Shown here one piece after another: positions 54,626 through 55,099 of a stretch of DNA of 64,000 nucleotides (positions within the stretch are counted from its first letter, which is position 1; the number at the start of each line of letters is the position of its first letter). This stretch comes from Paracoccaceae bacterium. GTDB lineage: Bacteria > Pseudomonadota > Alphaproteobacteria > Rhodobacterales > Rhodobacteraceae. The notes below the pieces were generated by a model. It did not search any database, was not told the origin of the DNA, and saw only the letters and a program-made list of their open reading frames with translations. The DNA lies in contig JAGWVA010000006.1 of the NCBI GenBank assembly GCA_028875855.1, positions 27,340 to 91,339 on the forward strand, read 5' to 3'. The translations under genes were made by a program, and so were the position numbers.

Positions 54626-55099
54626 TCAATATCTGCGGCCAATCGTGCTGATGGAATTGGCCTTGCCAAAAAGGGTGATGCTCAGCGCATCGCTGGTAAA
54701 CGACGAAAGATATCCCCCTGCAACAGGTGCAGAAGTATAGGAAACGCCCGATCCAGATGAATTTCCGGCAGACGATCCGGAATTTCCACCGGCCGATTGC
54801 GTCGCAACGACGGCATTGGCCCCATTCGGGCTGGCGCTGATCTGCGACGAATTCAGGACATTTATCCTGCCCAATTGGGTGACGCCAAGGGACTGGCTGC
54901 CATTCTTCTCGGAATTGATCGCGATATTCGTATCGCCGATCTGTTTGACAGTAATCGTGTCCGAACCGCCATTATCCTGAAAGAACGACCATATATTGAC
55001 CTTCGATGTCTGCTGCATGGTCAGCGTTTCGGCATGGCAGGAAACTGTCATCAGGATCAAAAGGGAAATGAAAGATACCGCGATGGATCTGGATTTCAT
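54626..55099 (-). CDS. Secreted curlin-repeat-like protein
   Basis: Signal peptide; three units Q30-x4-N35-x5-Q41, Q53-I-G-D-T-N58-I-A, Q75-L-G-R-I-N80-x5-Q86 with 22-23 aa period. Confidence 0.7.
   Translation of the reverse strand: MKSRSIAVSFISLLILMTVSCHAETLTMQQTSKVNIWSFFQDNGGSDTITVKQIGDTNIAINSEKNGSQSLGVTQLGRINVLNSSQISASPNGANAVVATQSAGGNSGSSAGNSSGSGVSYTSAPVAGGYLSSFTSDALSITLFGKANSISTIGRRY

Follow-up and report, generated by a model that had tools for sequence, protein, structure and literature searches.

Results

Gene content of the D locus

The window, which is the whole 64,000-nucleotide stretch of DNA analysed here, lies on contig C28 of a 3.86 Mb genome (148 contigs, assembly 99.97% complete). 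At the locus under study, three paralogous genes for secreted proteins (A, B and C) are located upstream of gene D on the same strand, and a gene encoding a Porin_2-type outer-membrane barrel follows (Table 1). The D start codon is preceded by a GGAGG Shine-Dalgarno sequence, while the GTG start codon of the porin gene lies 7 bases after the D stop codon on the same strand. A scan for sigma-70 promoters found none, and comparison with PHROGs gave nothing useful. D begins with a Sec-type signal peptide, which is likely cleaved after the residues CHA. Since the homologs described below possess a similar N-terminus but no Cys at that place, a type I signal is likelier than a lipoprotein signal.

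Table 1. Features of the D locus (positions refer to the window)
Feature	Position	Strand	Characteristics
Gene A	56241..56627	(-)	128 aa; one curlin-like unit; paralog of B and C
Gene B	55754..56194	(-)	146 aa; one curlin-like unit; 75% identical to A
Gene C	55256..55645	(-)	Secreted paralog of A and B; one curlin-like unit (VSIVQAGMVNGAFVAQ); Curlin_rpt 13.2 bits, below cut-off
RNA hairpin	55215..55249	(-)	11 bp, perfect, directly after C, no U-tract; -31.5 kcal/mol, z -5.3 (55200-55262)
Gene D	54626..55099	(-)	Secreted, curlin-like; 157 aa; start codon ATG at 55099, stop codon at 54626
D signal peptide	55031..55099	(-)	Residues 1-23; Sec-type, by inspection
D repeat 1	54977..55012	(-)	Core Q30-x4-N35-x5-Q41, by residue count
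D repeat 2	54908..54943	(-)	Core Q53-x4-N58-x5-E64; Q53, G55, N58 invariant in six homologs
D repeat 3	54842..54877	(-)	Core Q75-x4-N80-x5-Q86; Q75, N80, Q86 invariant in six homologs
D repeat 4	54782..54817	(-)	Half-degenerate, N95-x5-Q101-x4-N106; N95, Q101 invariant in six homologs
D repeat 5 and tail	54629..54691	(-)	Degenerate; C-terminal tail ending GRRY; G154-R155 invariant in six homologs
Porin	53146..54618	(-)	Porin_2-type outer-membrane barrel, 490 aa; Pfam Porin_2 25.7 bits, cut-off 22

The repeat ladder of D

Curli are amyloid fibres of bacterial biofilms. The initial annotation had described three curlin-like cores in D (Q30-TSKV-N35-IWSFF-Q41, Q53-IGDT-N58-IAINS-E64 and Q75-LGRI-N80-VLNSS-Q86), and its residue numbers are exact: the cores follow the QX10Q pattern with N at +5, are spaced 23 and 22 residues apart and deviate by a single exchange of Q to E, at the last core position of repeat 2, as had been stated. 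The Ser/Gly/Asn-rich tail of the protein and its IGRRY end were likewise described correctly. Three repeats are, however, a lower bound. Repeats 1-3 are canonical, the fourth unit (N95-AVVAT-Q101-SAGG-N106) is fading, and the fifth, assigned by inspection to residues 137-157, is degenerate and basic (DALSITL143-FGKA-N148-SISTIGRRY), with Leu and Gly in place of the glutamines. The fourth half-repeat and the degenerate fifth thus suggest five repeats in D, a layout like that of CsgA and CsgB.

Composition-preserving shuffling of the mature sequence reproduced three Q-x4-N-x5-[QE] cores at 18-27 residue spacing in 0 of 100,000 cases. Two such cores anywhere in the sequence occurred in 79 of 100,000 shuffles and three in none. 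The ladder remains beyond chance even when a few hundred ORFs per window are allowed for. AlphaFold2 prediction from the single sequence was uninformative, with a pLDDT of 37 and only one strand-turn-strand (residues 48-64).

Profile searches and homologs of D

A profile search with the curlin repeat had been proposed in the initial annotation. A weak match of D residues 24-86 to positions 87-149 of the NCBIfam CsgA model was obtained (E=0.0046), and 0 of 7 D shuffles matched the NCBIfam curli models. In the Pfam search, D had no score against Curlin_rpt (PF07012) and matched no other family. Nor was D matched by the NCBIfam CsgB model (NF007506), which has an equivalog threshold of at least 165 bits, or by an HMM of the repeat that was derived from the canonical curlins found in relatives. 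A position-specific matrix of curlins from relatives scored repeat 3 high (reached by 1 of 2000 shuffles) and left repeats 1 and 2 unrewarded.

Scans of a collection of ~85,000 genomes with D revealed no relative, and a direct search in 101 relatives returned noise only. Homologs were instead reached via relatives of the porin, beside which small Q/N-rich secreted proteins are encoded. They belong to five genera of a different family of Alphaproteobacteria (f70; genomes G913, G779, G780, G809 and G782) and are 17-30% identical, with the ladder residues and the GR tail kept. In the six-sequence alignment N35, Q53, G55, N58, Q75, N80, Q86, N95, Q101, G154 and R155 are invariant besides Met1. Loss of the Q/N ladder among homologs, which had been named as the finding that would speak against a curlin, was thus not observed.

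The homologs are matched by the CsgB/CsgA models with E-values of 1e-9 (L112), 4e-9 (L113), 4e-4 (L114), 5e-10 (L115) and 3e-11 (L116). Their CsgB-model scores range from 17.6 to 43.2 bits, and two of them, L115 (20.9 bits) and L116 (37.2 bits), pass the Pfam Curlin_rpt cut-off of 20.7 bits. An HMM of three homologs scored D at 34.1 bits, whereas the best of 2000 shuffles reached 9.6 bits. The same HMM recovered the counterparts in G779 and G782. With an HMM of five homologs, D was the sole significant ORF of the window (E=2.4e-6) in an alignment running to the terminal GR, and the csgA/csgB-like proteins of the window genome itself were matched as well. Several homologs are thus recognisable CsgA/CsgB relatives, and the curlin-like identity claimed initially is well supported even though D lacks a Pfam Curlin_rpt match. 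Judged from its weak CsgA match and from these homologs, D is very probably a distant curlin.

The porin and the recurrence of the pair

Maximum-likelihood phylogeny groups the window porin with seven curlin-linked porins (support 100/100) and makes it sister to the porin of G913 (100/99), although its branch is long (1.82). At 4 of the 7 loci of this linked clade, an HMM derived from canonical curlin units of other genomes detected a curlin within 1.5 kb, versus 0 of 19 other Porin_2 loci from the same search. Among the remaining three, the curlins of G780 lie farther off and none was seen in G130 and G781, where the loci are situated on short contigs (6.1 and 3.6 kb). The arrangement varies. 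G913 shows the order of the window, with the D homolog followed directly by the porin on one strand. The two genes are adjacent and convergent in G779 and G809 (L113, L115), two curlin genes lie divergently beside the porin in G782 (L116), and in G780 (L114) ~5 kb with genes for Asn/Gly-repeat proteins separate the D homolog from the porin. Searches of plasmids yielded distant generic porins only, or nothing. We found no published description of the curlin-porin pair, the subscription literature being mostly outside our search.

Other genes recur at such loci. Secreted proteins with GNGN/NGNxN repeats, possibly another repeat fibre, adjoin curlin-linked porins of f70 (L113 10171-12146, L114 3553-5030, L037 5422-5877, L089 3009-3581). 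Response regulators of the NarL/LuxR type, candidates for a CsgD-like control, are encoded directly beside curlin-linked porins (L037 3429-4774, L113 6124-6897, L114 6112-6843, L089 399-1211).

Matches to the N-terminus of the porin in three congeners were rejected, as the proteins in question are short and unrelated, with a signal peptide and an 'AG[ND]LK.PV.EAPVAVA' start in common. Short secreted proteins of congeners that start with AGNLKxPVxEAPVAVA (L038 5435-5767, L040 5497-5769) are encoded beside a ferrochelatase-like gene, and an N-terminus of this type is also present in the window porin.

Other csg genes of the genome

CsgG is the usual curli export channel. A whole-genome search for CsgG (PF03783) gave no match, with 148 contigs leaving room for a gap, while the same model was positive in E. 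coli, in Caulobacter and in 23 of 101 relatives (up to 191 bits). Neither CsgE nor CsgF was recognised among the ORFs neighbouring D. A locus with csgA-like, csgB-like and csgH genes exists elsewhere in the genome (L006 9326-10642, contig C10), unlinked to D, and its CsgH scores 62.9 bits beside the csgA/B-like genes. The cluster on this contig (L006 9326-11932) also includes a LuxR-type regulator. If the curlins of this locus are exported, another export route must exist, since no CsgG was found. CsgH without a CsgG match was also observed in G010, G019, G043, G046, G053 and G056, the matches in G010 and G046 being below the CsgH cut-off. Many Alphaproteobacteria encode curlin subunits only and no other Csg proteins, for which other proteins were inferred as replacements (Dueholm et al. 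2012, PMC3521004). CsgG is missing in only 2% of CsgA-bearing genomes (Sleutel et al. 2023, PMC10192328).

Genes A, B and C and the composition of the locus

A and C are 48% identical. Among 2000 shuffles per protein, the score of the single curlin-like unit was reached by none for C, by 11 for B and by 1 for A. With one such unit each, A-C may be strongly degenerate curlins. AlphaFold2 models of the three proteins reached no usable confidence, and no convincing relatives were found in 394 family genomes or in the ~85,000-genome scan with the A/B/C alignment. D and A-C share no significant similarity (hhalign probability 0.2%). The hairpin after C might act as a transcript end-protector or as an attenuator between A-C and the D-porin pair.

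Neither congeners nor the sampled members of the family carry the D locus. D has a G+C content of 51% and a GC3 of 60%, as against 62-70% and about 79-87% in its neighbours, whereas the composition of A-C is near ordinary for the host. We infer that D and the porin were likely acquired from another alphaproteobacterial lineage.

Discussion

In Pseudomonas, the secreted amyloid Fap is encoded next to the exporter FapF, a single-chain barrel of the outer membrane. That D, a curlin-like gene, also adjoins an outer-membrane barrel gene is a likeness by analogy only: D has curlin-type repeats and the window barrel matches Porin_2. The resemblance to CsgB (NF007506) is closer. Both proteins carry a signal peptide and are of similar length (157 versus 151 aa), D has about five repeats of 22-23 residues with QX10Q cores, and its last repeat, as assigned by inspection, is degenerate with basic residues. 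Homologs of D match the CsgB model with E-values down to 3e-11. In contrast, D itself lacks a match to this model, its tail ends in GRRY, and a Porin_2-type barrel, not CsgF or CsgG, is encoded next to it. The last repeat of CsgB, unlike that of CsgA, is degenerate with bulky or basic residues; it is required for association with the outer membrane but dispensable for seeding in vitro (PMC10192328; PMC4551309). The D locus also recalls the alphaproteobacterial csgA/B-csgH loci without CsgG (PMC3521004), one of which is present in the window genome, in that curlins occur without standard secretion genes nearby. It differs from them by a dedicated-looking porin gene and by having no csgH alongside.

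From sequence features alone, namely the short length, the five-repeat layout, the degenerate basic last repeat and the conserved tail, a minor-subunit role like that of CsgB is plausible for D. The interpretation of the initial annotation is supported in part. On balance we favour the reading that D is a CsgB-like minor curlin which works with the adjacent porin at the outer membrane. In the mechanism that we infer, D would be exported by the Sec pathway, and its five imperfect repeats would stack into a short amyloid beta-solenoid, one end of which may be capped by the degenerate last repeat and the conserved GR tail. The tail, together with the adjacent barrel, would hold D at the outer membrane, and the barrel might serve as docking site or exporter for D. 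The open end of the solenoid would then template the polymerisation of bulk subunits. A, B and C probably fill this role here, although their identity as bulk subunits is only suggested. It counts against a role of the porin that the two genes do not form one operon in L113, L115 and L116 and are ~5 kb apart in L114.

That the periodicity of D merely arose by chance in a low-complexity secreted protein rich in Ser, Asn and Gly, and that D is no curlin, is a reading already disfavoured and, in our view, very improbable. The biased composition of D, its missing Pfam match and the low confidence of its structure prediction would agree with it, but shuffles preserving this very composition did not yield the ladder once in 100,000 trials, and homologs with as little as 17-30% identity have retained the tail and precisely those residues that make up the ladder. 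If D is a curlin, it need not be a nucleator: it could also be an adaptor or a bulk subunit of the fibre, with A, B and C belonging to a different surface structure. The dissimilarity of D and A-C in the hhalign comparison, the strong hairpin separating A-C from the D-porin pair and the G+C content of D (51% versus 62-63% in A-C) point in this direction. Yet each of A-C bears a curlin-like unit, the three genes lie immediately upstream of D on the same strand, and D occurs in a single copy and has a degenerate, basic tail, in contrast to the amplified A-C; we consider a bulk subunit or adaptor improbable.

A greater share of our doubt concerns the porin. Porins are abundant, so the one beside D may be passive: D would then be a curlin-like fibre subunit that leaves the cell otherwise, without a special role as nucleator, and its neighbour an ordinary nutrient porin. 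The description of the Porin_2 family as general porins and the differing orientation and distance of the two genes between loci are in line with this alternative, as is the failure to find CsgG despite a separate csgA/B/H locus. It fits less well with the fact that the linked porins group in a supported subclade of their own while none of the other Porin_2 loci has a curlin neighbour, and with the same-strand adjacency of D and the porin in both the window and G913. We regard an ordinary porin as a lesser but serious possibility.

If D is instead the CsgB-like partner of the porin, as we favour, the D-porin pair may mark an unrecognised way of curli anchoring or export. More tentatively, and with considerable reservation, we propose that an alphaproteobacterial curli branch has the Porin_2 subclade linked to D as its outer-membrane partner, either as exporter or as an anchor replacing CsgG/CsgF, and that D would engage this partner via the conserved C-terminal tail. 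The unexpected element, for which we found no published description, is the recurrent curlin-porin pair; the initial annotation mentioned neither the adjacent porin nor the lack of a CsgG match. The pair provides a concrete candidate for the missing Csg functions in Alphaproteobacteria, a gap noted previously (PMC3521004). Should the porin indeed export or anchor curlins, this well-studied functional amyloid would have a second solution at the outer membrane.
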